From Cliona cf. orientalis (taxonomy: Eukaryota > Porifera > Demospongiae > Clionaida > Clionaidae), in contig OZ005689.1 in assembly GCA_963930775.1 (NCBI GenBank), positions 28,160,044 to 28,224,043 on the forward strand: a DNA stretch of 64,000 bases, written 5' to 3'. A program made the position numbers and the translations under genes. The number at the start of each line of letters is the position of its first letter. The first letter of the stretch is position 1. Under the pieces are notes generated by a model. That model saw nothing but the letters and a program-made list of their open reading frames with translations. It ran no database searches and had not been told where the DNA came from. Positions 24,537 through 57,264 of this stretch are shown in pieces.

Positions 24537-25258
24537 GGAAAGTCACACACCGATAAAAGCACTCGATTAAAATAGCTCATTGTCGAGTGCAAGCAACGCG
24601 AGCACAATTTCAACTGAAAATGCTGGTAGATCACAATACAGAACGAGCATTCATGAAGAATCTTACATGAAAGTCACGAAAATGCCTCCATTCTTCACAA
24701 ACCTGAGAAAAATCGAATGTTTAGCCCCTAGAGTTAGTCACATGTGCAAGGAGGGAAATCACATTACTCTCTGAATACATATTAGATGGGTATATAGCAC
24801 ATTTGATACTCTCTTCCCTTCTGTATTAATTACTCTTGAACAAAAGTATTGAGGATATGTTGTGGGCAAGTCATGATCATGTGATCACAGTTCTCAATAC
24901 AAACACCTGTATATTTTATTCGTTTGGAACTCACTACCCTGCGCACATGTACAAGGAGTAAAGTAATCCGTCTGTCTGTCTGTCATCACAAAATTGCCAG
25001 ATCTGGACAGCTAGGCATCTGAGTGACTAGTAAATACAACAAATCCATCAAAGTCGTCGAAAAACTGGCTTCATTATATTTGGCAAGGCCCACAAGCACT
25101 GCATCTTATCGACTCTACCCACTGCAGGCCATGTGCATACGTCAGCTACATGTACGCACACTGCTGCTGCAGCTCTCATTTCTATGCAAATAGATGTGGA
25201 TGCAGATGCAATGTGCTGTGTATGTGCTCTATAGGGCTCAAGTTGTTTCGCAATGCAC
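24537..25258 (+). repeat. Duplicated segment S1, copy 1
   Basis: Corresponds to 28385-29153. Both carry a matching 64-codon frame (24580-24774 here) with about as many silent as replacement changes by my count, so there is no sign of strong protein constraint. The segment ends with an R1 copy (24945 on). Confidence 0.7.
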
Positions 25259-25266
25259 TGGGTATG

Positions 25267-26312
25267 AGCAGTCTCTATTCAGTGGACTGGACCACTGGAC
25301 TGGACTACTGGACTGGAATACTGGACTCACCTTTGACCCCAAAAATAGCATACAAAAGGCTTCATTTAGCCCCTTATAGCTTGGTGGGGCGAGTGGGGTT
25401 ATAGAATAAGACGGCCTAATGGCCTTTGGCCTTGTGGCTTTATGGCCAAACGGCTAAGCAAGCAATTTATCTCCATTTGAGGTGGGATAGCATGTCCCCA
25501 GGTCTCTTGCTGGGAATGATCTGACACTGAATGAATATTAACTGATCAGTGAAAAGAATAGGTACACATGCACTCTTTTAATTGTGCTGGTGCAATTAGA
25601 TTCTTCCAAGATAAATAGTCCCCATAACAACAGTATCCTGTCCAGGTGTACTCTGGGGTACCAGCCCCTTCGCAGGCTGGTATATGCCCCAGACTAGTTC
25701 AGGTGCACGACAGTTGAGTCCAACTTAACGTCAGTAACATTCTTGTATCGTTTTGAATACTAATAGTATGACACTACACCCAAAGTGACACAAAATTGAT
25801 AATAAGATGTAACTTACTCATAACACATGATAGCTAATATTAATTATTATTATAATATGTTAATCGCAGCTATGTAGCTAAATTAATAGAGTTCCCCTGT
25901 CATGTAGACACAAACATGTTACTGACGATAAGTTGGACTTGACTGTCGTGTACTGTTGTTATGGGGACTACGTATCTCGGAAGAATCATAATTGCACCAG
26001 CATGATCAAACGAGTGCATGTGTGTCTATCTTTTCATTGATCAGATAGTTGAACATTCATTCTGTGTCAGATCATTCCCAGCAAGAGACCTGGGGACATG
26101 CTATCCCACCTTAAATGGAGATAAATTACTTCATTTGGCCATAAAGCCACAAGGCCAAAGGCCATTAGGCCGTCTTATTCCACTACTGATAACCCCACTC
26201 GCCCCACCAAGTTATAGGGGGCTAAATGAAGCCTTTTGTATGCTATTTTTGGGGTCAAAGGTGATTCCAGTAGTCCAGTCCAGTGGTCCAGTCCACTGAA
26301 TAGAGACTGCCC
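25267..26312. mobile_element. Fold-back element FB2, copy a
   Basis: The ends are inverted (left AGCAGTCTCTATTCAG; right complement GGGCAGTCTCTATTCAG). The arms are roughly 400-480 bp and continue through CTGGACTGGACTACTGG and ACCTTTGACCCCAAA. The target duplication TGGGTATG is at 25259-25266 and 26313-26320. The related segment at 29139-29160 shows the unoccupied site. No transposase is encoded. Confidence 0.8.
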
Positions 26313-26477
26313 TGGGTATGGGCAAGTTTATTCCTGGTTTTGTATGTGTGTGAAACTTGCAGTGAATGAAGCCAGATATGCCAGACATTCAGCTTGAAGC
26401 CTTTCAAATCAAAGGCAGGAATAATCTTGCCCAAGGTCACTAAATCACTGGGGCATGGCCACAGTATCAATGTGGGA

Positions 26478-26530
26478 TCAGGCCATGTCAGCAGATCTGA
26501 TAATAACGGGACGTGTAGCTGCGCGAATCG

Positions 26531-26571
<41 letters not shown>

Positions 26572-26898
26572 AGAACTTATCAATTATCTCGGTCGGCAGT
26601 GCGCAGACGTAGACTGCATTCACGTGGCATGACAGACGATGTGCGCGTGCGCAGATGGACAGGGGAGGGGCTGATTCATGCACATTTGGTAGGGGTGGGG
26701 CTGAAAATTGACAATAGACAGCAGATACCAAACTGAGTTATTCATGTCTTCTAGAACGCTAAAAATGCTCAGCAAAGGGCAAGCAGCTAAAATAGAATTA
26801 TATGAGCGCTTCTGGGGAAATTTAGTGATATATCCACCCAGGCAGTTAGTGGGTACCTTAAAGCCTTTCAAATCAAAGGCAGGAATAATCTTGCCCAA
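26478..26898 (+). repeat. Short copy of the 2.6 kb unit (unit 0)
   Basis: Begins ATCAGGCCATGTCAGC like units 1 and 2, then jumps to their end block: a CA run at about 26535-26565, R3, AACGCTAAAAATGCTCAGC and ATATCCACCC. It is interrupted at its 3' side by FB2 copy b. Confidence 0.6.
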
Positions 26899-28236
26899 GG
26901 GCAGTATCTATTCACTGGACTGGATCACTGGAATGGACTACTGGACTGGACTACTGGACTCACCTTTGACCCCAAATACCAACTTAAAATATTTTAATGA
27001 CCATTATTCAGTTGTGTGTCCCTATAATTATGCTTCTATTAAGTAGGATAAGGTATAATCACCTACTTGGATGTGGACAACCGTGAATGCAGTGTGAGGT
27101 AGCTAGCTAAGTGAAGCTATAAATACCCATTGTGCTAAGCAACAAACTGGAGCAAAGAAATGTAGTAATGAAGAATTGACTCATGAAGCATCGACTCATG
27201 AAGCATCATTTCAGTATCAGTACAAGTCTCCAAAAGATGTTGGAGGGTGTAGGTGTGGCTCCATGGCAGGGGGAGCCCGGAGAGGATTATTTAATTCAAA
27301 TCAAGTGTTGAAGATAGACGATGCTATAGGCTAAATTTAGCCAGCTATAGCTTGGTGGGGCAGTTAAATTATACTACGTTGAGCCTGGCTTACTTTTAGT
27401 GGTAGCTATAAGTATGCAACATCTACCTGGGCACTGCCCTGGTAGCCTCAGGCATGCAGGTACCTGAGTGATGTGTAATGGTCTGAGATTACCTCAAGAA
27501 AGGTGTGCTTCAACCCAAGTTTACGGTAATAGCTACTAAATATCAAATTCTAGCCACAGTGACCCTGCTGTGGATACAGTTGTCACGATACAGTCTTTTA
27601 GTGACTGCGGCAGGATCAACCTACCATTGTAAGAAAACAAGCATGATGTATATTGTCAAAGTTACTTGTTATGTATTACAGCCACAGATTAAGTTGCAGT
27701 ACGCCTCCCCCTCACCTCCCGGGCCCACCCTCCCCCACTGGTTTGCCCAAAAGCCATGGAAGAGTACAAGCTATGGCAGTACACACAGAACAGTGGGCTT
27801 CCTAATCATAATTATTGGATAATCGATTTCAGGTAGCTAAGCCTATAGCATCAACACTTGATCTAAACAAGCGAATTAATTAATCCTCGATCTCCGGGCT
27901 CCCCCTGCCATGGGGGCACACCTACACCCTCCAATATCTTTTGGAGACTTGTACTAAACTGAAAATGATGCTTCATGAGTCAACTCTTCATTCATTGCTC
28001 CAGTTTGTTACTTATCACAATGGATATTTAGCTATAGCTTCACTTAGCTAGCTATGCATTCATTGTTGTCCACATCCAAGTAGGTGATTGTACCATATCC
28101 TACTTAATAGAAGCATAATTATAGGGGCACAACTGAATAATGCTCATTTAAGTTGGTATTTGGGGTCAAAGGTGAGTCCAGTAGTCCAGTCCAGTAGTCC
28201 ATTCCAGTGGTCCAGGCCAGTGAATAGACACTGCCC
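26899..28236. mobile_element. Fold-back element FB2, copy b
   Basis: The outer 90 bp are shared with FB2 copy a (GGGCAGT.TCTATTCA, GGACTACTGGACTCACC). The remaining arm (about 26990-27340 against 27832-28150) is different, so the two are relatives with unlike interiors. The pre-insertion sequence survives at 26411-26450 (ATCTTGCCCAAGG then CACTAAATCACTG), which gives a duplication of about 7-8 bp starting TTGCC. The unpaired centre is about 490 bp. Confidence 0.8.
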
Positions 28237-28384
28237 TTGCCGGCACTAAATCACTGGGGCATGGCCACAGTATCAATGTGGGATCAGGCCATGTCAGCAG
28301 ATCTGATTATAGATAAATTTCACTGATGCAATTGCACAATGGGCAAAGTGGGGGGGGGGGGGGGGGGGTATATGCTCAGTTTTC

Positions 28385-29153
28385 AGAAAGTCACGCATCA
28401 ATGAGAGTGCTCGATTCAAATAGCTCATTGTCGAGTGCAAGCAATGCGAGCACGATTTCGACTGCAAACGCTGGTAGATCGCAATACAGAACGAGCATTC
28501 ATGAAGAATCTTGCATGAAAGTCACGAAAACGCCTCTATTCTTCACAGACTTGAGAAAAATCGAATGTTTAGCCCCTAGAGTTAGTCACATGTGCAAGGA
28601 GGGAAATCACGTTACTTTCCGAATACATATTACACGGGGTCAAGGGCTTATAGACCCCAGCAGTCTATAAGCCCTTGACGGGGTATATAGCGCATTCAAT
28701 ACTTTCTTCCCTGGGCAAGTCATGATCATGTGATCACAGTTCTCAATACAAACACCTGTATATTTTGTTCGTTTGGAACTCATTACCCCGCGCACATGCA
28801 CAAGGGGTAAAGTAATCGGTTTTGTCCGTCTGTCTGTCTGTCTGTCACCACAAAATCGCCAGATCTGGACAGCTAGGCATCTAAGTGACTAGTAAATACA
28901 ATAAATCCATCCAAGTCGTCAAAAACTGGCTTCAAATTGTTTGGCAAGGCCCACAAGCATTGCAAACACTGCATCTTTATTGGCGACACCTATCGACTCT
29001 ACCCAATGAAGGCCATGTGCATACATCAGCTACATGCACGCACACTGCTGCTGCAGCTCTCATTTCTATGCAAATAGGCAAAATACATGTGGATGCAGAT
29101 GCAATGTGCGACTGCTCTATAGAGCTCAAGTTGTTTCGCAATGCACTGGGTAT
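28385..29153 (+). repeat. Duplicated segment S1, copy 2
   Basis: Second copy of 24537-25258. It has a 46 bp hairpin insertion (28639-28679 and flanks) that is absent from copy 1, and a TCTG tetranucleotide run near 28828-28845. Confidence 0.7.
28639..28679. repeat. Perfect 17 bp hairpin inserted in S1 copy 2
   Basis: GTCAAGGGCTTATAGAC and its exact complement are separated by 7 nt. The aligned position in S1 copy 1 (about 24784) reads straight through, so this is an insertion or a locally templated event. Confidence 0.8.
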
Positions 29154-30115
29154 GGGCATGTTTTTTGCATTTGAAACTTCAGGTGACAGATATGCCAGAC
29201 ATTCATCTCATGGTGAGGTGAAATACTACCTTGGGCAAGAGTATTCTTGCGTTTGATTTGAAAGGCTTCAAGCTACACTAAGTGGGATCAGGCCATGTCA
29301 GCAGATCTGATTATAGATAAATTTCACTGATGCAATGGGCAATTGCGCAAAGGAGGGGGGGGGGGGCAGGAGTGTCATCATGGAATGATGTGCACAGCTC
29401 TGAGACTAAGATTATATATAGGCCTTGAAAGTTGCTGGTCCAAAGAAAGATCATTGCTATTCGTAACCCAGTCAGCCGTTCACTTCTGGGCTACAAGTGT
29501 CCATAGGCTCTGCTGGATTTACACAAGTGAGTGGTGCTGTATGCTACATAGCCTCACTAACTAACTAGCAAGTATTGGAAGTGTTTGCTGTATAAAACAA
29601 TGGAGCACTCCAGTTTGTAGCTCAAGGTATAGACCAATGCTAGCTGCATAAAGAGATCTAGCTGCTTCAGGACGTATGGCAGTGACTCCCTTGTTTAGCA
29701 CATAATTTACTCAGTTGGGCAAAAGCGTAAACAATGTTCATCGCATTGTCAAGCGCAAAAAGCAGGCATTGTCAGGTAAATTTTTATCACTTCTTGCTCA
29801 CACACGGGCACAATGTGTGGCTAGTTATATCTCTAGTCTTAGTTTCTGCAGAGAAGTTTTTGCTGTTTGAGTTAGCACTGTACATAAATCTGTGATGGCA
29901 ATTTTGATCCCGCTACAATGTATGTAAACGGAAAAGGGGCGTGTGAGATCGTATACTGCAAAAAAATCTAAGGATCAAGACTCTTTGATCAAACCATCAA
30001 GCAAGTTTCAAGACTCAAGCGATCAAGGCCTATCTTTGTATTGATTACCATTGCAGGTGCCGCATTGAGACGACTATCCCTGTAATCAGTAGTCTCGTGC
30101 CAGCCTCTTTGTTGC

Positions 30116-30361
30116 ATGCGGAAAAAAAGTATGGTGAAATGCGCATGGTTCCGGCAATATCTATTGCGTCCATTCCGATTGCAAAATAGTGTCTGTGAAG
30201 TTCACACGAAAGCGATAAGCTCAAATGTAGCTGGCAAGGATGTGGATGATCCATGGTTTATCTCTCTACTGACTGGGACAGGAAAATCTCTCGTTTTTCA
30301 CTTATACTGCTGCTGTTTGACTGTCTGTTTGGTTACGAATCAGACACTGAAACAAGCATAG
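30116..30361 (+). pseudogene. Helicase fragment with Walker A (TGTGKS), copy 1
   Basis: Frame of 81 codons containing KAISSNVAGKDV and then LTGTGKSLVFHLY, the layout of motif I in RecQ/DEAD-type helicases (..GKDV....TGTGKSL..). A few residues between the two blocks (DDPW) look like the product of small indels. No other helicase motif follows in frame. Unit 2 has the same fragment with different damage, so this is a relic carried by the repeat unit. Confidence 0.45.
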
Positions 30362-30687
30362 CACTCGAACTCCACCAAGATTGTGTTTTCGAGGCTCCTG
30401 CTAGGCGTAAGGCTGCGTGAATTACGCATAAGCAAAACAAACGTGATCGCGCTATCACTGATAATATTTCTTGTTTGCACGTCATAATATGATGCCGTGT
30501 ACGTCTGGAATCAAAATTGAATAAGCATTTCACCACACTCTTTTTCCGATCCGCGTGTGGGTACGAGACTATGTAATCAGGTACTTCCGGGAAAATTCCT
30601 GTTCTGTTTGTAATATATCATAAGGGAGGAGGAGGAAGGGTCTGGTGTCATGCCCATACCGGAGTTGTACCAGTGCTTAGCTGTTAT

Positions 30688-30949
30688 GCACCTATCAATG
30701 TATTGCCCCATCTACCCCCCCCCCCCCCTCCTCCCCACTGGTGGGGATTTGATCTCATTTGACCAATAAACATGCCCCAAATCAGGGGGATTTGATCAAA
30801 ATTCACAGATAGTAGGGTGAAATATACAGTCCCGATGGGGGCATTTGATCATAGAATTTGCTCCAGGGGAGAGGCAATTGATTTCATATAGGTCAAATCC
30901 CCACCATTTGCCCGTGGGGTGGTACCTGGGGCAATACATTGATAGGTGC
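30688..30949. mobile_element. MITE with GCACCTATCAATG ends
   Basis: GCACCTATCAATGTATTGCC at the left is mirrored by GGGCAATACATTGATAGGTGC at the right. Unit copy 2 reads GCTTAGCTGCTATGCCTGTG through the same point (about 33870), showing the empty site. The exact duplication is ambiguous (TA or TATGC). Confidence 0.75.
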
Positions 30950-31294
30950 AGTATGCCTGTGTGCAAAACCTCATTCGTGAAGATCTAGTCTAGTACCCTA
31001 GCTAGCCCTGTAAAATTGGTGATGACGTGGAGCAATCTGATCGGGCGCCACTACTGGCTGCAGCATGTACTAGTCTCATATATATATAGGCATAACACCA
31101 GATCCTTTCTCCTCCCCAGTGATAAAATACAAACCTGGCGTTCCAAGCCCAGTATATTAGGTGATATTATACAGTTCGATAATCAGGAGAAACGCCATAT
31201 AATATTATGCTCACACAAATAGAGATCACCTCTCAACTATGAGATTACTTACGTGCTACTTTATCGCTACGTACGCGTAGCTGCGCGAATCGTG

Positions 31295-31410
<116 letters not shown>

Positions 31411-32468
31411 CTTACCAATTATCTCGCTCGGCAGTGCGCGCGGTAGACTGCGTTCACGTGGCACGACGGACCATAGATAATCTATTATCTATGGACGGAC
31501 GATATATATGCATGCGCGTGTGCAGATGGACAGGGGAGGGGCTGATTTGGTAGGGGTGGGGCTGAAAATCGTCCGTCGCGCGCGCGTGCGATCGCAACGT
31601 GAACGCGCAGACTGCGTTCATGTGGCAAGACGGACGATATGCGCGTGCGCAGATGGACAGGGGAGGGGCTGATTCATGCACATTTGGTAGGGGTGGGGCT
31701 GAAAATTGACAATCGATAGCAGATACCAAACTGAGTTATTCATGTCTTCTAGAACGCTAAAAATGCTCAGCAAAGGGTAAGCAGCTAAAATAGAATTATA
31801 TGAGCGCTTCTGGGGCAATTTGGTGAGATATCCACCCACGCAATTAGAAGGCTTCATGCTGGTATTAGGCAATATTATCAGGCCATGTCAGCAGATCTGA
31901 TTATACATGTAGATAAATTTCACTGATGCAATGGGCAAAGCAGGGGCGCCCGCCACAATATTATGCAGGAGTGAATGATGTTGCACAGCTCTGAGACTAG
32001 GATTATAGGCCTTGAAGTTGCTGGTCCAAAGGAAGCTCATTGCTATTCATAATCCAGTCAGCCGTTCACTTCTGGGCTACAAGTGTGTATAGGCTCTGCG
32101 GGATTTACACAAGTAAGTGGTGCTGTACGTACAATTCCCCATAGCCTTGCCAACTAACTAGCAAGTAGCGGAAACGTTTGCTGTGTAAAACAATAGAGCA
32201 CTCGAGTTTGTAGCTCAAGGTATAGACCAATGCTAGCTAGCTTGTCTGCATGACGAAAAGACCTAGCTGCTCCGGGGGCGTATGGCAGCGACTCCCTTGT
32301 TGAGCACATAATTTACTCAGTTGGGCAAAGCGTAAACAATGTTCATCACATTGTCAAGCGCAAACAGTAGGTATTTTCAGGTACATTTTCATCAGTTCTT
32401 GCTCATACACGGGCACAATGTATGGCTAGTTATAGCTTAGTTTTAGTTTCTGCAGAGACTTTTTTCAA

Positions 32469-32916
32469 CACTGTGTCTACTGTACTGTCACCGGTACCCA
32501 AGATTTAGTGCTTGGAGTACCGGAAGCTCTAATATTAGCTATAGCTAATAGCCACTAATACTGAGTGCTAGACGGCTAGCGAGGCTAGTAGTTGGGGGGG
32601 GGGTTTGGTTTCGCTAATCGGTTAGTGATGAGGGGTTTTGGATTTAGGCTATGGTTGTTGACAAAGGGTTAGTATTATAGTGACAAGGTGTATAAAGGTG
32701 GCAAAAAACGACATCCAGCAGCAGCGAGCTGGGTTAGCAGAGCGGACTAGGGCTAGGGCTGGTGGAGCGGTGGTCGTGGGTTCGAAACCCGCTTGATCTT
32801 TAGATTTCTTTTTTTATTCCACTTTCGAACAATTTTTTACGTTTTTTGGCGGGCTAGTTTGCCGGTACTCGAAGCGCTAAATTTTCAGTACCGGTGCCGG
32901 TACAGTAGACACAGCG
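32469..32916. mobile_element. MULE-like MITE with 9 bp duplication and tRNA-like core
   Basis: The left end CACTGTGTCTACTGTAC and right end GTACAGTAGACACAGCG are inverted and flanked by TTTTTTCAA at 32460-32468 and 32917-32925. A 9 bp duplication suggests a Mutator-type element. Unit copy 1 (about 29855) has the unoccupied site. Inside is a tRNA-like segment with a strong B box. Confidence 0.75.
32726..32797 (+). other. tRNA-derived segment inside a MITE
   Basis: An A-box-like GGGTTAGCAGAGCGGAC and a good B box/T arm (GTGGGTTCGAAACCCGC) with an extended middle as in class II tRNAs. A T-rich run (CTTTTTTT) lies just beyond. Acceptor ends do not pair. It is probably a tRNA-derived SINE or relic trapped in the MITE. 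Confidence 0.45.
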
Positions 32917-33074
32917 TTTTTTCAATTGTTGCTGTTTGAGTTAGCACTGTACATCAATCTGTGATGGTAATCTCGCTACAATGCATGGTGCAAGTACAAG
33001 CCACATTGAGACTACTATCCCCGTAATCAGTAGTCTCGTGCCCAGCCTCTATGTTGCATGCAGAAAATAAAAGT

Positions 33075-33266
33075 ATGGTGAAATGCGCATTGTTCCGGAA
33101 ATATCTCATTGCGTCCTTTCAGAATAGTGTCCGTAAAGTTCAGACGAGGGCAATAAGCTCAAATGTAGCTGGCGAGGATGTGGATGATCCATGCCTACCT
33201 AATGGGACAGGAAAATCTCATTTATACAGCTGCCGTTTGATCGTCTGGTTGAGAATCAGGCACTGA
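33075..33266 (+). pseudogene. Helicase fragment, copy 2
   Basis: Counterpart of 30116-30361. NVAGEDVDDP is followed by NGTGKS, retaining the GKS of Walker A but losing residues before it. The lesions differ from copy 1, as expected of independently decaying relics. Confidence 0.45.
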
Positions 33267-33381
33267 CACACTCGGACTCCATAATTTGCCAAGATTGTGC
33301 TTTCAAGGCGTCGGTTGGGTGTAAGGCTGCGTGAATTGTGCATACAAGCAAAACATCGTGATAACGCTATCACTGATAATA

Positions 33382-33683
33382 CAGTGGAATCCTGCATGAC
33401 GGACACCCCTCAACGGCGGACACCTGCGATATAACAGAAAATTCTGAATGTCCGGATTGTATTTCCATAGACTTCAATACATTCAAACCCCCTTAACAGC
33501 GGACACCCCGCTATTCCGTATAACGGACACTTATTTTGGTCCCGCAGTGATACTTTATCATAGCTGGCCTCGATTCGATTGTAGGAGGGGCATGGTCAAC
33601 CACTACCCCTGAGCTAAGGACACTTCGCTATAGCGGACTAAAATTTTGGTCCTAATGGTGTCCGCTTTAGAGGGTTTCCACTG
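33382..33683. mobile_element. Tc1/mariner-type MITE, TA target
   Basis: CAGTGGAATCCTGCATGACG at the left, complemented at the right by GTTTCCACTG, with GGACACC blocks inward from both ends. TA flanks both sides. Unit copy 1 at about 30463 reads GATAATATTTCTTG with a single TA, the empty site. Confidence 0.85.
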
Positions 33684-34957
33684 TATTTGTTTGCGTGTCA
33701 TAATAATATTATGTCGTGTACATCTGGAACCAAAGTTGAAAAAACATTTCACCACACTCTTTTTCCGATCTACGTATGGGTACGAGAATATGCAATCAGG
33801 TACTTGTAACATATCAGGAGAAGGAGGAAGGATCAGATTCTGGTGTTGTGCCCATACTGGAGTTGTACCAGTGCTTAGCTGCTATGCCTGTGTGCAAACC
33901 TCACTCGTGAGATGTAGTCTATAACACCAGAGCCTTCCTCCTCCCCAGTCATAACCCTAGCGTTCCAAGCAAGCCCAATAAATCAGGCGACATGCTAGCC
34001 TCGTCCCCAGGCCCCTCCCAACGCGGGGACGAGGCTACACATGAGGCTAGCGACATGCATACAGTTCCATAGTCAGGAAAGGCGAGAAAACTATCAGTAA
34101 GCCATATTATTATATTATGCTCACACAAATAGAGATCATCTCACAACTGTGAGAATCGAATCGTGTCACACACGACAGACACAGACACGCACACAAAACT
34201 TACCTATAATCTCGGTAGTGCGCAGACGAAGTTCACGTAGCTGTAGTCTCGTCCCGGTCCCGATCCCCAGACTAAAGTTCACGTGGCACGATGGCCGATA
34301 TGCGCACGCGCAGTTTGACAGGGGAGGGGCTGGTGCAGATATGCGCGTGCGCAGTTGGACAGGGGAGGGGCTGATGCATGTGCATTTGGAAGGGGTGGGG
34401 CTGAAAGCACGACCTTTGACCTTAAAATTGACGACTGACAGCGGATACCAAACGGAGTCATTCATGTCTCCTACAACGCTAAAAATGCTCAGCAAAGGGT
34501 AAGCGGCTAAAATAGACTTATATCAGCGCTTCTGGGGCAATTTGGGGATATATCCACCCACGCAAATAAATGGTACCTTAAAATCTTTATGCTATGATAC
34601 AATGTCACATAATATTATGCAAATTGGAGGCTGAATTTAAGTTCATTATTAATGCTGTTATACGTATAACCACTCTCCACCCACTATAAGTTCACATGAA
34701 AATCACATGACTCGTGATTATTCCAAATAAAGTGCTCCATAATGACTAGTTTCAATACAAATCACATAGGTTCAATGATAATAATATATCAGTATAGGAA
34801 TAGAATAGTTTCCAATGATCGAGATTTAGGTATAGGAATAGAATAGTTTCCAATGATATTTCAGCATAGGAATGGAATAGTCTCCAACGAGATTTCAGTT
34901 CAAAATTAATATCATTGATGTGGCTGCCGATAGCCTGGTCACTAGCCTTATCCAGCA

Positions 34958-36900
34958 TCAGTCAATGAGGTCACGGTCACGGTCACCCTCATCATCTTCT
35001 TCTGGATTAGCTCCATCCAAGAGAGGGGCAATACCCGTCAGGAAGTCATCCAGGCCATTCACTTTGCAGGTCTCAACATATGCTCTGTCACTCCTGCACC
35101 TCGGACACGTCCTCGACTGCCCCTGCTCCCCACGATACCACGTGTCAACGCACTGCTGACACCCCAAGATATTCTTACAGCATTTGGCAAAAATGACTGG
35201 CGGCGTCATTGGGGTAGCTTGGCAAATGCTACATTTGAATGTATCGTAGAGTAGGTTTCTCAGACCGAGGGGAACCGACATGCTGCTGGTCAGCCGAAAC
35301 ACCTTTGACATGGTGTCCTTCATCTCCCTTATGTCATCGGACATGATGGACAGCTTGGCAGCTTCAGCTGTACGTTTACGCCTGGTAATGGGTGTGGGCA
35401 ACTCCTCTTCTGAATCAGAAGATGGAATGCTGATGATATTGGCAGACAATCGCTTTCTCGACTCCTTCAGGTCGGACTCTTTCACCGCATACAACTTCCG
35501 GCTACCCACTTTCCAGAACTTGAGCCCTACACAAAAATAATAGCACTTCATTCATATACCGGCAGTACCAATAATAATTATTTACCATGAGTTCCCGAGC
35601 TGTCGTCAAGCTTTAAACCATCTGAAGTCACCAGGTTGTAGTCCAACCCCCACTTGCGTTGGACTGCTGAAGAGACATAGTTCACATTGGCAGTTGCTTC
35701 GGTCACGTCCACGAACGTCTGATTGTGCGCCATGAACTCCAACTTCCCATTAGCCAGCCGCTTGACTGATGCCTGAATAACTTTAACGTTGATGGACTGG
35801 GTCTTCCTCATGGTTGGCACTGATTGCGTCCCAGAAGTCGATGGCTCGTTGGCAAGGGAAGATATGGCGGCCACTCTCCCAGCAGATGGAGCACTAGCAA
35901 AGGACTGTCCCTGCATGGGAGAACCCATTGCAACGAGATCCGTGATCAGGACCCCCACGTCAGCACTCAGGACGAAGTGTGCGTTCTGTAAATCAGGGAA
36001 GAAGGCTCTACTACCACCCTCCTCGCGTAGCCACACTGTCGATGGATCAAGCTGCACATAAATAATAGCACCATGGATAGCTTTTTCGTCAAGAGGGAAA
36101 TTCTAGCATGGGGTAGCGTAGCCAAACTAGTGGGCAGGGGCCATGCTCCCCCAGGAAAATTTTGAAATGTTACTACCTCTGTGGTTTCTGAAACCACATA
36201 ATTATTATTATATACACGTTATTGTCTTTAATCACATTATCATCATACTTGGTAATTTTAGTGGGTGGGGGAATCCCGGCCCAGGGTGCCCCCCCCTGTA
36301 CTTAATGTACTCACAATGCCTTGCACATGAATGCAGTACAGACCATCGCTGTATGTTTATTAACAGTGGCGTAGGCAGGGGGGGTGCTCAGGGGGCTCGA
36401 GCACCCCCCTCTGCTCTTGGCCTAGTCATGCCTAGTTCACATAGTCCATAGAACAGCCTCATCCAGCACCCCCTTGGCTACTCCAAACTATCATCTACTA
36501 CAAAAAAACAGCTTAGAAGATAGTTAGAAACTTATCTCATCCCAAGATTCGGCCGAAAACCTTGAGCTAGCTCGCTAGCTACATTCAGAACGCGTTCTCT
36601 TTGACAATTTGAACTTCGACCTTGACGGTTAATAAGTGGGCGTGGCTTAAAATTTTGCGCGCGTACTCCAGCACCCCCTTACCTAAAATCCTGGCTACGC
36701 CCCTGATTAATATGAATGTCCCTCCCCCCCCCCCCGACGCATAGGCCAGTCATAGTACATAATTTATAGTGATAATCACTCACTGAAAAAACCCTGGCGA
36801 TGGACGACGGTGTCACTTGAGCCACATCTAGTTCTATAGCTTGCTGTCCTTCCCGAGACACACGCACATGGTCTACCAGGGCAAATCTCGAAGATGCCAT
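34958..36900 (-). CDS. RING-finger protein, left copy (383 aa)
   Basis: Exons on the minus strand: 36900-36784, 36051-35586 and 35526-34958. Donors are GTGAGT and GTAAAT, phases 0 and 1, stop at 34958-34960. The N-terminal region (MASSRFALVDHVRVS.., about 120 aa) is globular and unrecognised. The middle is Ser/Thr-rich with a basic TRRKR patch near 243-247, and the C-terminus is an acidic EEDDEGDRDRD tail. Residues 293-338 hold C-x2-C, CC, C-x2-C and C-x2-C with a WYRGEQGQ segment, a RING/U-box-like cross-brace zinc site, so E3 ubiquitin ligase activity is the likely role. The start could instead be the in-frame ATG at 37020, adding 40 residues. It faces integrase exon 1 across about 260 bp, suggesting a shared two-way promoter. 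Confidence 0.75.
36364..36705. mobile_element. MITE nested in RING intron 1, left arm
   Basis: CAGTGGCGTAGGCAGG at the left and CCTGGCTACGCCCCTG at the right, flanked by ATTAA. The same insertion occurs in the right arm (38942-39296), so it predates the inverted duplication or was spread by conversion between arms. Confidence 0.75.
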
Positions 36901-37163
36901 GTCAAACCCCGAGTAGTGACACACTGTCGGTAGCGAGGCGCGCAAAGTTTGTAATAGCAGTGGCTGTGCTGCACAGATTCTGTCACTTTTTTTTTTATCG
37001 AAGATGTTCCTCCACAGCACAGTCGGGCAAGGCCAAGATCAGCACGAATCTATACTAGCGCGCGCACTTTTGGCGGGTACTGGGCAATTATTACTATCGC
37101 GACCTTTGGCCTCTCAAAGTGCGCTTTAATCAGAAAATTAGTTTGAATTGATCCGAGACTCTG
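36901..37163. promoter_or_regulatory. Divergent intergenic region, RING gene and integrase (left)
   Basis: A 263 bp gap between the RING start and the oppositely facing integrase start, repeated in the right arm (38481-38743). No promoter motif could be named. The call rests only on the divergent layout. Confidence 0.35.
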
Positions 37164-37397
37164 ATGATGGCGACACTGGCAACGATACCTGGTATTCATT
37201 CCCTGGTTATGAAGTTAATTGTGCAGGATAGAAAAAGCTATCAGCATGTCAGCGACGTCCTAAAAAGACGGTATCCCATGTTGAGAGGACTGAGTTCGAG
37301 AAGTGTCCGACGGTTCTGTGAGGCCTACAGTATTCACGCCACGTCTCGCATATCGGATTATGATTTGGATGCATCTGTTCGACACTGTATAACTAGG
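37164..37397 (+). CDS. Integrase first exon, left arm
   Basis: 78 codons from MMATLATIPG to CITR, followed by GTAAGT in phase 0. The segment SYQHVSDVLKRRY..GLSSRSVRRFC looks like the helix-turn-helix region that precedes the rve catalytic core in animal integrase core domain proteins. The same exon is in the right arm. In this arm it could splice on to the central exons, but no catalytic-core exon lies between. Confidence 0.6.
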
Positions 37398-37481
37398 GTA
37401 AGTATTCTGTAATAAAATTAACAATAATGATGAAGGCTATAGAAGAGGTGTGCAGGAATGGTCTGAGGTAGTGTATGACTG

Positions 37482-38161
37482 AAATTAGCGTGACGGTATA
37501 TCGGGAAGTTTTTTTGTTGGTGCAGATTTTCAAATTTCTTGCCAAAAAGCCTACAGAATATTTTGATTGCTAGCCTTGACCTGCTAGACCTAGTCTCGCG
37601 GAGCCAGACCCTTACGCGCGGGGAGAGGGTCTGGTGACTTGCTATACACGGAGTTGTTCTGCTGGAATGCAATAATTGGCCAATCACATGATTGAAAGAC
37701 TTTGGGTTGAAATAAACTCAAGGATAAATTATCCTGTAAAGCAAGTGCTAGTGGAGATGGACAACAACGGAGACATAAACATGGCGGATAGTCTACACAG
37801 GTACTGTGTGTTGTGGATAGCTATTGAGGTACTTAAAAAAGGAGCTGAAACCTTCATTTGTTCTTGGAATAGTCACACTATTCCTGGTAAGACCATGATT
37901 GCATGGACTATAATAATATTAAATTTTGTGTTACACGTATTTTGTGTATGCATGACATTATAGGAAGAAGGAGAGGTGGAATGCGTAGTCATGTACCCAA
38001 TGAAGTGATGAGAACAAACAATAGAATAGCTCGAGTTGACATGAGACATGTACCAAGTCCTCACCACGCTGTCAGAATGTACCATGAAGAGGGAGGGAGG
38101 ATTTCTGATGAAACTTATTTTGGGGACGATCCTATTTGTGCTGATCTTACTAAGTGCTCAA
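37482..38161. other. Unique centre of the palindrome
   Basis: 680 bp present once. Its left part (37482-37681) is non-coding and contains a short inverted GGGTCTGG / CCAGACCC pair (37609-37633). The rest is integrase 3' coding sequence. Confidence 0.7.
37682..38160 (+). pseudogene. Integrase C-terminal exons, catalytic core missing
   Basis: Exon 37682-37886 starts NHMIERLWVEINSR and ends SWNSHTIPG; then GTAAGA, an acceptor at 37962-37963, and an exon from 37964 (RRRGGMRSHVPNEVMR..) that runs into the inverted arm. The N-x3-ER-W block matches the stretch around the third acidic residue of DDE/rve integrases, and IPGRRRGG is a typical family end. The two catalytic Asp residues should lie between SVRRFC and NHMIER, but only about 280 bp of non-coding DNA is there. 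No AG acceptor directly precedes NHM and a TAA stop is in frame at 37673, so a deletion junction is likely. This copy cannot encode a working integrase. Confidence 0.6.
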
Positions 38162-38246
38162 TCAGTCATACACTACCTCAGACCATTCCTGCACACCTCT
38201 TCTATAGCCTTCATCATTATTGTTAATTTTATTACAGAATACTTAC

Positions 38247-38480
38247 CCTAGTTATACAGTGTCGAACAGATGCATCCAAATCATAATCCGATATGCGAGA
38301 CGTGGCGTGAATACTGTAGGCCTCACAGAACCGTCGGACACTTCTCGAACTCAGTCCTCTCAACATGGGATACCGTCTTTTTAGGACGTCGCTGACATGC
38401 TGATAGCTTTTTCTATCCTGCACAATTAACTTCATAACCAGGGAATGAATACCAGGTATCGTTGCCAGTGTCGCCATCAT
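38247..38480 (-). CDS. Integrase first exon, right arm
   Basis: Protein identical to that of 37164-37397, read on the minus strand. Downstream (toward the centre) it meets the 3' exons in antisense orientation, so it can never splice to them. It is a dead-end exon. Confidence 0.6.
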
Positions 38481-38743
38481 CAGAGTCTCGGATCAATTCA
38501 AACTAATTTTCTGATTAAAGCGCACTTTGAGAGGCCAAAGGTCGCGATAGTAATAATTGCCCAGTACCCGCCAAAAGTGCGCGCGCTAGTATAGATTCGT
38601 GCTGATCTTGGCCTTGCCCGACTGTGCTGTGGAGGAACATCTTCGATAAAAAAAAAAGTGACAGAATCTGTGCAGCACAGCCACTGCTATTACAAACTTT
38701 GCGCGCCTCGCTACCGACAGTGTGTCACTACTCGGGGTTTGAC

Positions 38744-40692
38744 ATGGCATCTTCGAGATTTGCCCTGGTAGACCATGTGCGTGTGTCTCGGGAAGGACAG
38801 CAAACTATAGAACTAGATGTGGCTCAAGTGACACCGTCGTCCATCGCCAGGGTTTTTTCAGTGAGTGATTATCACTATAAATTATGTACTATGACTGGCC
38901 TATGCGTCGGGGGGGGGGGGGGGAGGGACATTCATATTAATCAGGGGCGTAGCCAGGATTTTAGGTAAGGGGGTGCTGGAGTACGCGCGCGAAGTGCGCG
39001 CGCAAAATTTTAAGCCACGCCCACTTATTAACCGTCAAGGTCGAAGTTCAAATTGTCAAAGAGAACGCGTTCTGAATGTAGCTAGCGAGCTAGCTCAAGG
39101 TTTTCGGCCGAATCTTGGGATGAGATAAGTTTCTAACTATCTTCTAAGCTGTTTTTTTGTAGTAGATGATAGTTTGGAGTAGCCAAGGGGGTGCTGGATG
39201 AGGCTGTTCTATGGACTATGTGAACTAGGCATGACTAGGCCAAGAGCAGAGGGGGGTGCTCGAGCCCCCTGAGCACCCCCCCTGCCTACGCCACTGTTAA
39301 TAAACATACAGCGATGGTCTGTACTGCATTCATGTGCAAGGCATTGTGAGTACATTAAGTACAGGGGGGGCACCCTGGGCCGGGATTCCCCCACCCACTA
39401 AAATTACCAAGTATGATGATAATGTGATTAAAGACAATAACGTGTATATAATAATAATTATGTGGTTTCAGAAACCACAGAGGTAGTAACATTTCAAAAT
39501 TTTCCTGGGGGAGCATGGCCCCTGCCCACTAGTTTGGCTACGCTACCCCATGCTAGAATTTCCCTCTTGACGAAAAAGCTATCCATGGTGCTATTATTTA
39601 TGTGCAGCTTGATCCATCGACAGTGTGGCTACGCGAGGAGGGTGGTAGTAGAGCCTTCTTCCCTGATTTACAGAACGCACACTTCGTCCTGAGTGCTGAC
39701 GTGGGGGTCCTGATCACGGATCTCGTTGCAATGGGTTCTCCCATGCAGGGACAGTCCTTTGCTAGTGCTCCATCTGCTGGGAGAGTGGCCGCCATATCTT
39801 CCCTTGCCAACGAGCCATCGACTTCTGGGACGCAATCAGTGCCAACCATGAGGAAGACCCAGTCCATCAACGTTAAAGTTATTCAGGCATCAGTCAAGCG
39901 GCTGGCTAATGGGAAGTTGGAGTTCATGGCGCACAATCAGACGTTCGTGGACGTGACCGAAGCAACTGCCAATGTGAACTCAGCAGTCCAACGCAAGTGG
40001 GGGTTGGACTACAACCTGGTGACTTCAGATGGTTTAAAGCTTGACGACAGCTCGGGAACTCATGGTAAATAATTATTATTGGTACTGCCGGTATATGAAT
40101 GAAGTGCTATTATTTTTGTGTAGGGCTCAAGTTCTGGAAAGTGGGTAGCCGGAAGTTGTATGCGGTGAAAGAGTCCGACCTGAAGGAGTCGAGAAAGCGA
40201 TTGTCTGCCAATATCATCAGCATTCCATCTTCTGATTCAGAAGAGGAGTTGCCCACACCCATTACCAGGCGTAAACGTACAGCTGAAGCTGCCAAGCTGT
40301 CCATCATGTCCGATGACATAAGGGAGATGAAGGACACCATGTCAAAGGTGTTTCGGCTGACCAGCAGCATGTCGGTTCCCCTCGGTCTGAGAAACCTACT
40401 CTACGATACATTCAAATGTAGCATTTGCCAAGCTACCCCAATGACGCCGCCAGTCATTTTTGCCAAATGCTGTAAGAATATCTTGGGGTGTCAGCAGTGC
40501 GTTGACACGTGGTATCGTGGGGAGCAGGGGCAGTCGAGGACGTGTCCGAGGTGCAGGAGTGACAGAGCATATGTTGAGACCTGCAAAGTGAATGGCCTGG
40601 ATGACTTCCTGACGGGTATTGCCCCTCTCTTGGATGGAGCTAATCCAGAAGAAGATGATGAGGGTGACCGTGACCGTGACCTCATTGACTGA
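38744..40692 (+). CDS. RING-finger protein, right copy (380 aa)
   Basis: Exons 38744-38860, 39608-40064 and 40124-40692, matching the left copy. Exon 2 is 9 bp shorter (the residues after NVN are SAVQ, against YVSSAVQ at left). One substitution gives Thr for Ala in the EGQQ.IELD segment of exon 1. The frame and all zinc ligands are intact in both copies, so two outward-facing, probably functional RING genes are retained while the integrase is broken. An in-frame ATG lies upstream at 38624. Confidence 0.75.
38942..39296. mobile_element. MITE nested in RING intron 1, right arm
   Basis: Mirror of 36364-36705. It is about 12 bp longer owing to an extra GCGCGAAGTGCG-like segment near 38990. Confidence 0.75.
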
Positions 40693-41072
40693 TGCTGGAT
40701 AAGGCTAGTGACCAGGCTATCGGCAGCCACATCAATGATATTAATTTTGAACTGAAATCTCGTTGGAGACTATTCCATTCCTATGCTGAAATATCATTGG
40801 AAACTATTCTATTCCTATACCTAAATCTCGATCATTGGAAACTATTCTATTCCTATACTGATATATTATTATCATTGAACCTATGTGATTTGTATTGAAA
40901 CTAGTCATTATGGAGCACTTTATTTGGAATAATCACGAGTCATGTGATTTTCATGTGAACTTATAGTGGGTGGAGAGTGGTTATACGTATAACAGCATTA
41001 ATAATGAACTTAAATTCAGCCTCCAATTTGCATAATATTATGTGACATTGTATCATAGCATAAAGATTTTAA

Positions 41073-41734
41073 AATTTGACATTCATTTTCACCCACATTG
41101 CAAACTTGAATGCTGTAGCTACAGAATTGAGGCATTAAAAATAGACTCTAAAATTCAATTTTCAATTTTAAACTGGGAATTGAAAATGGAACGCAAGATT
41201 AGTGATCTGTGATTGTTTAAAAAAGAATTAATTGCATTTTGAATGGCAACTTCTGACAAATATTTCAATAAAATGAAAATTGGACTGGACACTTTAATTT
41301 TTAATTTTCTGATGTAACGGTTGTTGAGGAGTGCCAAAATAGACATCTTTCGATTTTTTAAGCAATAAAATGACAACTGGACCAACTATACACTCACCCA
41401 TCATCTACGTTTATTTCAATAGTCTCCTTTGTGCCTGTGTTGATATCTCTCGTTATGACCTGAACGGGAATTAATCCTTATTGTTTCAGCCAGTTCAAGG
41501 AAGCTTCACAGCCTTCTTTTCTATTCCGCTTTAGATCCTACTTGTAACAAATACTGTGATTTGATTGGTTAAACTGAAGTATCTATCCTTCATAGAAAAT
41601 CATGTAAGCTCTATAGAAAATCATGTAAAGCTCTGTAGAAAATCATGTAAATTTTCTTGCCTATGGTTAGGGTTGTTGCTAGGCAGCAGTTTATATGTCT
41701 AGCTTTTGGGCATTGTTGCTAGGATCTAAACATG
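41073..41734. other. Stretch without a supported gene
   Basis: AT-rich, with several overlapping TTTAAAATT-like blocks. A 76-codon frame on the minus strand (41155-41385) is low-complexity. The region also holds a short AAATCATGTAA triple repeat at about 41598-41652. Confidence 0.35.
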
Positions 41735-45597: not shown

Positions 45598-46845
45598 GTA
45601 TGTTCACATGCTCACAAGCTAACACATTATTTCATATGTCAATCCATGTTCATGTGCTCACAAACTCACAGATTAAATTAGGGTAGGGGTACTCATTACT
45701 CCGAGGCACATGTTCACATGTACAAGCTCTCAACCATTAGGCTAATGGTATCCTTCCTAAAAATGGGTATATCCATGTTCACATGTTCACAAGCTCACAC
45801 ACATTAGGGTGGTGGGTATCCATGTTCCAAGTGCTCATATACATCAGGGTATAATACTGGTATCCATGTTCACATGCTCACAAGCTCACACACATTAGGG
45901 TATATCCATGTTTACATGCTCACAAGCTCACACACATTAGAGTATATCCATGTTCATGCACTTGTTCACAAGCTCACACACTTTAATGATTAGGGTTCGG
46001 CATTCTCGCATACGTTAGGGTATATCCATGTTCACATGCTCACAAGCTCACACACATTAGGGTATGTACATCCATGCTCACACACGCTATATCCATGTTC
46101 ATATGCTCACAAGCTCACACATTAAAGTACATCCGCTCACATATACATTAGGGTACATCTATGTTCACATGTTCACAAGCTCACACATACTAGGATATAT
46201 TATCCATGTTCACATGCTCACAAGCTAGCTCACACATTAGGGTATGTACATCCATGCTCACACACATTAGGGTATATCCATGTTCACATGCTCATATGCT
46301 AACATACATTAGGGTATGTACATCCATGCTCACAAGCTCACACACATTAGGGTATATCCATGTTCACATGCTCACAAGCTCACACACATTAGGGTGTGTA
46401 CATCCATGCTCACATGCTCACACACATTAGGGTATGTACATCCATGCTCACAAGCTCACACACATTAGGGTATATCCATGTTCACATGCTCACACACATT
46501 AGGGTATGTACATCCATGCTCACATGCATTAGGGTATATATAGCTATATCCATGCTCACATGCTCACAAGCTCACACACATTAAGGTATATTCGTGTTCA
46601 CATACTCACATATACATTAGGGTACATCTATGTTCACATATTCACAAGCTCACACATACTAGGATATATTACTATCCATGTTCACATGCACAAGCTCACA
46701 CACATAAGGGTATATCCATGCATGTTCACATGATCACAAGCTCACACACATTAGGGTATGTACATCCATGTTCACCTATTCACACATTAGGGTATTCATG
46801 TTTACATGCTCACATGCTCACACACATTAGGGTGTAGTGGGTATC
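45598..46845 (+). repeat. Minisatellite of ~40 bp units with TTAGGG
   Basis: About 1.2 kb of irregular tandem units built from TCCATGTTCACATGCTCAC, AAGCTCACACACA and TTAGGGTATA. About 25 units by eye, with higher-order alternation between TATATCCATGTT and TGTACATCCATGCT forms. Frames crossing it are repeat artefacts. Confidence 0.9.
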
Positions 46846-47006: not shown

Positions 47007-50000
47007 TCATTCAGTGTTGCATTTGCTGCATAACCAGTTTTTTTTACGGTAATCGCTAGGTCTAGCCTTTATGCAGAAGCCATGAAACCACTTATCACAT
47101 GACTCGCAACCTAGCCCTAGCCATCGAATTGACTTCATCTTCTTTGGTGCTTGATCAATGATGCACCTATCTGCAGCACATGGTCCAGAATCCTCTGCTG
47201 TACCTATACAATAGTGACATTCAATACGATGGGGTAGGTCTACAATAGCCACGTCAGTTTACCTGACTTGCCCTTTGATTTTGATCGCAACTTGCTCAGG
47301 TACTTAGTGTTATCTGTAAGATTTCAGAATCAGGTACATTATATACACTAATAATTTGGCTATACATTAATCATTTATACCTCTTCGAATCCTGCAAGAA
47401 ATCTGCTTCTTCATGACGTGAGCAATTATCAGAAGTTTAGCTAAGTATAGTAATTAACATAATTTTCGTCAGATTCTGCAATATTCAGTTTGCTATATTA
47501 TAATTAATATTTCTACTCACAGTGAAGATTCTTCTTGGGAGATAGACCATAGTGATCCAAACGTCGTTTCCAAACGCATCTGGTTAGCTCTATTAGAGTG
47601 CGTTAATCAGTTGCAGGACTATTATAATATTATTATTATAGAAAGCATACTTGGTCTCCTAATTGGGCTCAGCCCAAGTTGTGCAAGTTGACGACTACTC
47701 AGCTGGATGTCAGGTAGTGAAACTGTATACGAGTAAACTGATGGATTATTGCATACCAAATTAACAAGTTCTTGTCAATGGACATTGATGGGATAGATTA
47801 ATTAGGTCAGTATTATAGGTAGATAAAAAAGGAAGTTATCCGTAGTATATATCAGCAAAAACTATTGATTGTCGTGATTAAATTTCAATAAAAACATTTG
47901 GGTTCAGATCATTCAACAATACATTGATTTTCTCTTACATTCTAATTTTATCCTCACAGAAATTTGATCAATTCTTTCTCCACTCTTGCATCTGTGCTCT
48001 TTATGCAGGCAGATACTAATAATATAATAATACTATAATTGGTATGCTACTATTCACTATAATTATTATAATAAATAATAATTATTATGATCCCAATGAC
48101 TCACTTGCAATGGGAGTTTCTTTAATTACCGAGCTAGTGCTGATGACTGTCATTTCCTGGGAATTACTACTATTCTCTGAGTTAGTATCACTTCTCTCAT
48201 CAACACTTTCAGCAACTATAACATTAATAATTACTATCAGGAATAAACTATTGTTTCATTGTGATAAAATTACCTTGATTAACCTCCGCACCCATTGGTG
48301 TAGTCAGGTCACCTTCAATAGCCTCTTGTATCTCACTTTGCATACCTGTAACTGACAGCTGAGTGTTTTCCTCTATAACTTCACCTTCAGATAGGCTTCT
48401 CCTAATCCCCAAACTATCTCCTTCAAAATCTCCAGGGTTAACTTCACTACCACGCTCGAGCTCTTCTCCATCACCTTCAGTGCCCGAGTCCTCTCCATAC
48501 AAATCTCCGGGGCCCACTTCACTACCTCCATCGTTTCCAGCACCTTCAGTGGTTTCTTGATTTCTATCTTTATCTACATACAATATTATTATCGTTATTG
48601 CTCAAAAGGCATATCATTCTATTACTAGGGTATGCTCGTCTGCACAGATAGATACAGATGCAGGATGTGCACATGCATGAACAAAACATCACTATAGTCA
48701 CATTATAGGTATGGTACGTGATTATCTTGTATAATATTTAGTGTTGGACCTCACACACATAAGCCCCATTACACGTACCTAACAGTTTAGATTAAACTGC
48801 ATTTACGTACACGCATGCATGTGCTTAACCCGAGTTAAGATATTCATAGTCCACTACTATGCATGTAACCCACTTTGAATTCCCCGGATTAACTAGCTAC
48901 CTCGGTTTACAAATGGGTTAGCACGTTAACATGGACTTTGAGTTAACCACTACGTGTAAACAGGGCTATAGGGTGCCCAATCACACACTGTCAGTTAGTG
49001 CTAATAAATATACCGATCAAGAAATTGTAGACATACTCTGATACCCAGTCCTTGGGGATGGCCACTGATGTTCGGTACTTAACGTGAGTCTTGGCATGTG
49101 GACCTGATCTGGTAATTTTTCGATCCTTAGATTTTCCTGTCAAGAAGTATTGCTTGTATCTTCCAATGACAGCCCTCTCTCGCCTGTGCAAACGTTTCCT
49201 GATGATATCAGCTGATGGGTGTTCAATTCCAATTCCATCCAAGTGTTTAAGGAAGAGATTCAGGGATATGGCAACACCAGGAACACTGACTCTGGTTTTT
49301 GGATCAGTGTAACTTATAGATGGATTAACACATCTCAGGACCTGCTTAGTAATTGATATACAATATCCTGGACATAATAATACTAGAGAAATAAAGCACC
49401 TTTGATGAGGAAGGTTTCTTATCCACCATCTTCTCCAACAGTTTCTCTATGTCATTGTCACTCTCTTGAGTTTCCTTCATTGGCATCTGACGGGAGATCA
49501 CTTCTGGACCAACAACATTCTCGATGTATCGCCACATGTCTTTCACAGTTATGCCGGGTACTTTGACCTTCTTAATAATCTAGTCGTACACACAGTATAT
49601 TATGCATGTTCTATATTTCCGTGCATGATGCCCTATAGCTCACAATATTACATCCCCAGTAGCAATTTACTTTTCTGTGGTTATTAGGTAATGATGACAT
49701 ACTCAGTGCCTTTAAGGACTGTCTCAAGTCTTATCGCGCGCGCCGTACTAACGCCACTTAGCGTGCATGTTTGTGGCCAATTAAGCGGTTAGACGTGACG
49801 TCACCCGATAGTGGCGTAGTACAAGCCATGGCTGTGTAGCCGCATAGCTGCAATAATCGAGCAAATTATTTCGTTCTGCGAGTTCCAACATTGTTCCAGG
49901 GGTTGTTTCGCAGTTTGAATGATGGAAAGCTAAACTTCCAGATAGTTATCGAGGATCTGCCGAGGGAGCAGTTGACTGCTCACTCGGCTTTGTGGGCGTG

Positions 50001-53913: not shown

Positions 53914-54577
53914 CTTCAAGTCCAACGAAATCGCGATTGGCAAAAAAAAAAAAGAATTGAGTGCTGAGCAGTGATAGTTGCACACTAGCTATGCAGCGAA
54001 CGCTGAGGTTATATAGCACGAGTGCCAGCTGAAAGGAAACTGAGTAGGCGCACATACAAGTACGCGCGTGCGCGCAATTAATTATACGCGACGTCGATCA
54101 GCTATAGCTAGCTACGTATTGTCAGGCCGCTCGTGTCAGGCTGTTACATCTTGTATAGCAGACCTTCAGCTGCCAGCTGTAAAGCAATAACAACAACAAT
54201 AATAATAATAATAATAGTATTACCGGTATACAATGTCATGTTTCATAATAATAATTTGCGCGCGAATTGCACATTCTTAATTCCCTGCTTTCCTGGGTAT
54301 AATTATGTTACTGGTATTAATATTTATTATGCACATGCAATAGCTATCAATGCAAATTTCCATGTCACATTACATTACAATAATCATTATTGTATAGGCT
54401 CAGATTGATAGAATAACAACAACGAATAATTATAATTATAACATTTTACTTGGCTGCTTAGTTCACATAACTATCATAATAATAGATTTGTTACTCATAT
54501 CAGGTTTTCAATTCAAGGTTCACTGTTCTCATGACCATATTATAATAATCTGTATACAATTAAATGTCATTGACAAG

Positions 54578-57162: not shown

Positions 57163-57264
57163 TTCGATCATTAATTCACTATATAGCACTTCTACAATAA
57201 TTTGTACATCTGCCAATGTAGTCAGTTTATAATTTAATACAGGCATGTCTTGCGCAAGCCACAC

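Follow-up and report, generated by a model that had tools for sequence, protein, structure and literature searches.

The window analysed here is a stretch of 64 000 nucleotides from the sponge Cliona cf. orientalis (contig OZ005689.1, called C1 here, positions 28160044-28224043), taken from a 217 Mb assembly in which genes carry introns. It holds a palindromic element in which two copies of a RING gene stand on either side of the remains of an integrase gene. Sequence comparison confirmed the palindrome as first described. Its arms are inverted copies of 2905 nt (left) and 2911 nt (right), which differ by one substitution and four insertions or deletions (indels) of 9, 1, 13 and 3 nt. The sole substitution is missense, and otherwise the coding difference is one in-frame 9-bp deletion. 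The initial annotation had also placed a full, outward-facing RING gene in each arm, an inward-facing integrase first exon in each, and in the centre the 3' part of the integrase only, and all of this was borne out. The features are as follows, positions without a contig name being those of the window.

34578-37482: left inverted arm, outer edge cut (arm comparison).
34958-35526, minus strand: left RING exon 3, with a C4C4-like RING and the stop codon (open frame, mirror of the right copy; zf-RING_2, E 0.0034, 18 bits against a cut-off of 27.3).
35586-36051, minus strand: left RING exon 2, retaining 9 bp missing from the right copy (open frame, arm comparison, relative on contig C13).
36364-36705: high-copy repeat of about 343 bp inside RING intron 1, left arm (genome search).
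36784-36900, minus strand: left RING exon 1 (mirror of the right copy).
37164-37397, plus strand: integrase exon 1, left arm (comparison with relatives).
37483-38161, plus strand: single-copy centre, 679 bp (arm comparison).
37588-37682: 95-bp fragment of an unrelated high-copy repeat in the centre, immediately 5' of integrase exon 4 (repeat search).
37683-37886, plus strand: integrase exon 4 with the catalytic Glu (IERLW), from a match to rva_4 (PF24764); start approximate, its own acceptor site not seen.
37964-38161, plus strand: integrase exon 5, severed by the palindrome junction and ending about 44 residues short of the relative's stop.
38162-41072: right inverted arm (arm comparison).
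38247-38480, minus strand: integrase exon 1, right arm (comparison with relatives).
38744-38860, plus strand: right RING exon 1 (gene model).
38942-39296: the same repeat of about 343 bp, right arm (mirror positions of the left-arm copy).
39608-40064, plus strand: right RING exon 2 (gene model).
40124-40692, plus strand: right RING exon 3 (open frame, gene model).

The right RING gene is open across its three exons, which are joined by GT..AG introns and encode 380 amino acids (aa), and the left copy mirrors it with 3 additional residues that derive from the 9-bp indel. The same 9 bases of exon 2 are present in the C13 relative, indicating that the deletion happened in the right arm. An alignment of four RING proteins contained eight invariant Cys and no invariant His. 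Thus, of the earlier statement that both RING frames and all zinc ligands survive, the first half stands, the frames being open, while the second holds only if the domain is a C4C4-like RING. Eight Cys without His are presumably reminiscent of C4C4-type RING domains such as that of CNOT4. A sequence search of solved structures with the RING gave UHRF1 as the best match (E 0.015). The repeat in RING intron 1 matched 39 further places among the best 40 of 674 candidates, 38 at 92-99% identity and one as an 85% fragment.

The integrase was identified through the frame at 37676-37963, which contains exon 4 and matches Pfam rva_4 (PF24764) with an E of 3.7e-8 and 33.8 bits against a cut-off of 26; the integrase of a relative on contig C7 scores 94.3 bits against the same cut-off. 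A search of solved structures by sequence gave no useful match for the integrase. In the C13 relative the gene has five exons, with HIDQNEKL in exon 2, RVDKG in exon 3 and IERLW in exon 4. The exons with HIDQNEKL and RVDKG, which hold both catalytic Asp residues, were not found in the window, where only exons 1, 4 and part of 5 are present; thus exons 2 and 3 are missing relative to C13.

The edges of the palindrome are not the ends of the element. An extent of 34578-41072 with an end reading TTAA-AATCTTTATGC had been proposed, and neither was upheld, as the TTAA belongs to an adjoining multicopy repeat, the right side continues to 41398 and the left end is lost.

34170-34577, plus strand: unrelated multicopy repeat adjoining the left arm, possibly reaching further left (edge GGTACC, then TTAA).
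41073-41398, minus strand: outer right end beyond the palindrome, with its terminus GGTGAGTGTATAGTTGGTCCA at 41398 (terminal motif, 63-bp second copy, relatives' ends).

This multicopy repeat has its edge in the TTAA at 34578-34581. A search with both palindrome flanks joined as the query returned, among the best 40 of 160 candidates, the window's own two flanks and 38 other copies of the repeat, and all 38 stop between query positions 102 and 110, the TTAA itself finishing at 104. Past the repeat edge, one of the 38 (L016) and a copy in the window at 26858 read GGTACC and TTAA, after which the sequences diverge, and at position 2794 of locus L067 (contig C3) a similar repeat adjoins another RING element exactly at TTAA. 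A role for TTAA as the palindrome's target duplication was thus ruled out, since it comes with the repeat and the right terminus lies at 41398. As a separate observation, the window from 24100 to 34577 is a dense nest of related repeats, in which 26608-26849, 31606-31847 and 34338-34568 are copies of the palindrome-adjoining repeat in one common orientation; recombination among these copies could have removed the left end of the element.

On the right the element ends at 41398, reading GGTGAGTGTATAG. A terminal motif (GGTGNNTGTANNNNNNGGCCA) built from the ends of two families of relatives matches 41378-41398 at all but one position, and the window has no other match of this quality. Across the genome it had 22 exact matches, ten of which are the paired ends of its five source elements, against none for the reversed control. 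The terminal 63 bp recur at C1:18529361 with 95% identity and the same starting base, and the terminal 78 bp share 73% identity with the RING-side end of three non-palindromic relatives. At up to 3 mismatches the terminal 27 bases occur at three places in the genome and were not found left of the palindrome in the window, so that the element has lost its left end or retains it in much altered form. The probable terminus at 41398 was placed on the combination of the one-mismatch motif match, the 63-bp second copy and the likeness to the relatives' ends. It replaced a candidate at 41093 (GGTGAAAATG), because 41398 fits the longer terminal motif and has the second genomic copy. Two further candidates were rejected. 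A candidate 6-bp duplication, ACCCAC, found together with weak flanking inverted repeats 16-18 bp beyond the palindrome edges, was discarded because its left copy lies inside the adjoining repeat and the same letters stand in the L016 copy. The 303-bp segment C1:18529361-18529663, which has one terminus of the window type and one of the non-palindromic family, was dismissed as a mobile unit because it has no 6-bp duplication.

Both ends could be located in five relatives in the same genome, which fall into two families.

C1:18522664-18529262: non-palindromic relative, GGTG ends, 6-bp duplication GGGTCT.
C13:8111022-8117628: non-palindromic relative, GGTG ends, 6-bp duplication GAGGTT.
C6:10241161-10247705: non-palindromic relative, GGTG ends, 6-bp duplication CTTCTC.
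C7:8374174-8380247: palindromic relative of 6074 bp, duplication GAAGAG; its 2.23-kb arms hold RING frames of 343 and 342 aa and flank an integrase frame of 409 aa.
C1:25627436-25633517: palindromic relative of 6082 bp, duplication ATACCC; two RINGs in 2.23-kb arms, the integrase frame ending at 340 aa.

The three non-palindromic copies measure 6545-6607 bp, have GGTGCATGTATG ends and carry one RING and one integrase gene each. In all five relatives the termini are GGTG..CACC and are flanked by 6-bp target duplications of varied sequence. The full 409-aa integrase frame is present in one of the two palindromic-family copies (C7). Inverted arms of kilobase length reach both termini in C7 and in the C1:25.6 Mb copy, while the left arm in the window has no outer end, and the RING genes of C7 face inward, in contrast to the outward orientation in the window. 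The family nearest to the window element is 66-73% identical to it over matching DNA segments. In an integrase tree of 10 sequences the window element paired with the non-palindromic family (support 88/88), while the C7 element and two others lay across a 99/99 branch. With the C7 family beyond that branch and its RINGs turned inward, palindromes most simply arose at least twice. Comparison of the four 2.23-kb arms of C7 and C1:25.6 Mb revealed three substitutions common to both arms of one copy against both of the other and six private to single arms, a pattern consistent with gene conversion of one arm by the other, so that in the window the likeness of the arms does not necessarily give the age of the palindrome.

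Relatives were also sought outside this genome. In viral contigs 18 and 51 pattern matches were obtained, none of which was confirmed, and in prokaryote genomes one of 117 was confirmed. This match, LWTN01000144.1 (442-1944), covers integrase exons 1-3 on a contig from a sponge-symbiont assembly, with no RING match in its 4.4 kb, and the contig is presumably sponge host DNA.

The initial annotation would have been refuted if RING and integrase genes were never adjacent elsewhere, which is clearly not so. The genome holds 21 RING loci (from 24 match rows, three of which were merged with neighbours) and 35 integrase clusters, made by hand. An integrase cluster lies within 5 kb of 15 of the 21 RING loci and within 10 kb of 18. 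Outside the window element, 13 of 19 RING loci fall within 5 kb of an integrase match, and six of the 15 closely paired loci belong to three palindromes. Random placement gave a mean of 0.1 RING loci within 5 kb (0.14 if placements on C1 were limited to the part beyond 16 Mb), with a maximum of 2 in 2000 trials. The three RING loci more than 10 kb from an integrase are at C1:26.84 Mb, C1:19.36 Mb and C3:3.37 Mb. The relative order of the two genes varies, with divergent examples in the window, C1:18.5 Mb, C13 and C6, convergent ones at C2:8.38 Mb, C1:22.3 Mb and in the left half of C7, and tandem ones at C1:28.35 Mb, C1:31.05 Mb and on C17. The segment of C1 from 16 to 37 Mb contains 13 of the 21 RING loci, 22 of the 35 integrase clusters and 33 of the 38 left-flank repeat copies among the matches listed, an indication that this part of the largest contig is a transposon-rich compartment.

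Selection was assessed by comparing the left arm of the window with the C13 relative, using the proportions of nonsynonymous (pN) and synonymous (pS) differences. For the RING gene, 341 codons gave pN 0.21, pS 0.87 and pN/pS 0.24 (0.19-0.29), and for the integrase 209 codons gave pN 0.23, pS 0.81 and pN/pS 0.28 (0.22-0.35); synonymous sites are saturated in this comparison, and the values are read only as a strong excess of silent change. Judged by these sequences, the two genes were under similar constraint in the lineages separating the window's family from that of the C13 relative. The survival of the RING frames at this locus had been offered as a sign of selection, a suggestion that does not stand: with a single substitution between the arms, nothing is recorded of selection after the palindrome formed or last underwent conversion, and the related palindromic arms show signs of homogenisation. 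Most likely the RING protein assists transposition as an accessory factor and is not random cargo; it is putatively ubiquitin-ligase-like.

Taken together, we consider the window element probably to be a fold-back derivative, dead and truncated on the left, of a DNA transposon with two genes, one for an rva_4 integrase of the Asp-Asp-Glu (DDE) type and one for a C4C4-like RING protein. What is observed is that the structure is palindromic, that integrase exons 2-3 are gone, that the right terminus lies at 41398, that palindromic and non-palindromic relatives have 6-bp target duplications and that both genes are conserved between families. The fold-back, non-autonomous derivative envisaged in the initial annotation is thus retained as a derivative of a RING and integrase element, but continued movement on an integrase supplied from elsewhere is not supported, as no second copy of the family was found among all 33 candidates scored and the left end is lost. 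The ancestor would have carried one RING and one integrase gene in divergent order, as in the C1, C13 and C6 relatives. Excision-gap repair, or inverted recombination between the ends, may have placed an inverted copy of its RING-side half over the integrase side, whereby the terminal repeats would have been extended to about 3 kb and would have absorbed integrase exon 1 together with the RING gene. Integrase exons 2-3 would have gone in a deletion of their own, and the arms were perhaps held near-identical by gene conversion, like those of the other palindromic family. Afterwards a TTAA-sited repeat would have entered the left arm, and the element would have lost its outer left end.

Several observations weigh against this reading. 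Pfam RING scores are under the cut-off, and for RING exon 3 the modelled structure was of too low quality for use (predicted local distance difference test score, pLDDT, 42.6). With two mismatches the terminal motif has 2 matches in the window against 1.31 expected, which is chance level and makes the motif weak by itself, and the 63-bp second copy of the terminus lies in the 303-bp fragment without a 6-bp duplication. As the left end is not preserved, a target duplication of the window copy cannot be shown, and, as no second copy of the window palindrome family was found in the genome among all 33 candidates scored, transposition of the palindrome itself is not demonstrated. The match of the C6 relative to integrase exon 1 is limited to the last 29 residues, the pairing of the window with the non-palindromic family in the tree has moderate support only, and the order of events given above is inferred.

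Other explanations of the locus were weighed against the fold-back derivative. The palindrome could be a natural hairpin-silencing locus, read-through of which yields a 2.9-kb double-stranded RNA that silences the family. Mu killer silences MuDR in maize in such a manner, and it is in keeping with this that half of a transposon is duplicated in inverted orientation here, that its transposase is broken and that no other copy of the family was found. However, the RING genes are transcribed outward with no promoter shown across the centre, and the nearest family, at 66-73% identity, is judged too distant for small-RNA targeting, and we regard a silencing locus as unlikely. There is a similarly small chance that the RING gene was domesticated by the host while the integrase decayed, as might be read from two open RING frames beside an integrase that is not open; the arms, though, differ by one missense substitution and one coding in-frame 9-bp deletion, and so offer no selection record. 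An assembly palindrome, with one real arm and a mirror image added by the assembler or a fold-back read, would explain the near-identity of the arms, but is improbable, given that the mirror symmetry does not extend into the flanks (on the left the arm gives way to the repeat, on the right it continues for 326 bp to a family-type terminus), that the arms differ by 9- and 13-bp indels, and that the same kind of palindrome exists at two other loci with different 6-bp target duplications. Least credible is a TTAA-targeting transposon with piggyBac- or Kolobok-like ends, for although TTAA stands at both palindrome edges, the left one arrives with an unrelated repeat (38 other copies listed) that also meets the L067 RING element at TTAA, the right terminus is at 41398, the five relatives end in GGTG and are flanked by 6-bp duplications that differ from one another, and the terminal 25 bases (TTAA plus AATCTTTATGC) have no further copy in the genome within 3 mismatches.

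Comparison with known systems was made with the covered parts of the papers cited. IS3EU/GingerRoot elements have an integrase-type DDE transposase and 6-bp target duplications, as do the relatives described here (PMC10045372), and fungal IS3EU carries extra genes beside the transposase, TET/JBP and alpha-kinase, one of them in opposite orientation (PMC12730594). IS3EU ends are, however, TA..TA (TAYGG..CCRTA in fungi), in contrast to GGTG..CACC in the five relatives and GGTG at the right end in the window. Since TA..TA ends were not seen, the element was not filed under IS3EU/GingerRoot, being set apart by its described ends. The word RING is absent from the main text of both papers. Galileo, of the P superfamily, resembles the window element in its long terminal inverted repeats (TIRs), extended by recruiting internal non-TIR sequence, and gap repair and template switching have been discussed as a source of its defective copies (PMC4168063); it belongs to another transposase superfamily, and an accessory gene enclosed in the arms is not seen in the part of PMC4168063 covered. 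KolobokP also combines a transposase with a second gene and long repeats at both ends, but the repeats are direct, the second gene is an internal His-Me nuclease and the transposase is of Kolobok type (PMC9587614). The TTAA target duplication of piggyBac and Kolobok is not found here, where relatives use varied 6-bp sites. RING-like domains occur within RAG1 (PMC10799480), the C-terminus of piggyBac transposase (PMC2533014), an Isis-like gypsy gag (PMC3630058) and one Mutator family (PMC6446971), all inside the transposase or gag, in contrast to the separate gene beside an rva_4 integrase found here. The literature search, which covered portions of openly licensed papers, with Repbase outside its scope, returned no description of a transposon in which a RING gene of its own stands next to an integrase.

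Elsewhere in the window, 54578-55180 (minus strand) holds a fragment of a KDZ (Kyakuja-Dileera-Zisupton) transposase, with a Pfam PF18758 match (E 2.1e-5) just under the curated cut-off. Four frames near it (48991-57276) include three without a match and one with a weak match (ChrB_N, E 0.004). The region 45600-46836 is repetitive, with many overlapping self-matches at about 69-75% identity.

A more speculative proposal, which we hold only tentatively and think rather doubtful, is that a group of integrase transposons has repeatedly adopted a two-ended design, with a complete RING gene at each end, arms matched by conversion, transposition as a unit and the RING as an obligate partner of the integrase, the window copy being a broken, independent example. 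Movement of the design as a unit is put forward because the C7 and C1:25.6 Mb copies suggest it. If the proposal were true, duplication of the arm would raise the dose of RING or guard against its loss. The window copy by itself is a relic, and it is its relatives that hold the interest. What accessory genes do in eukaryotic DNA transposons is seldom understood, and the presence of a RING gene near an integrase in divergent, convergent and tandem orders, with a degree of conservation between two families that is close to that of the integrase, makes a ubiquitin-like step in transposition directly testable. Palindromes in two distant families of one genome show a route by which accessory genes enter terminal repeats.

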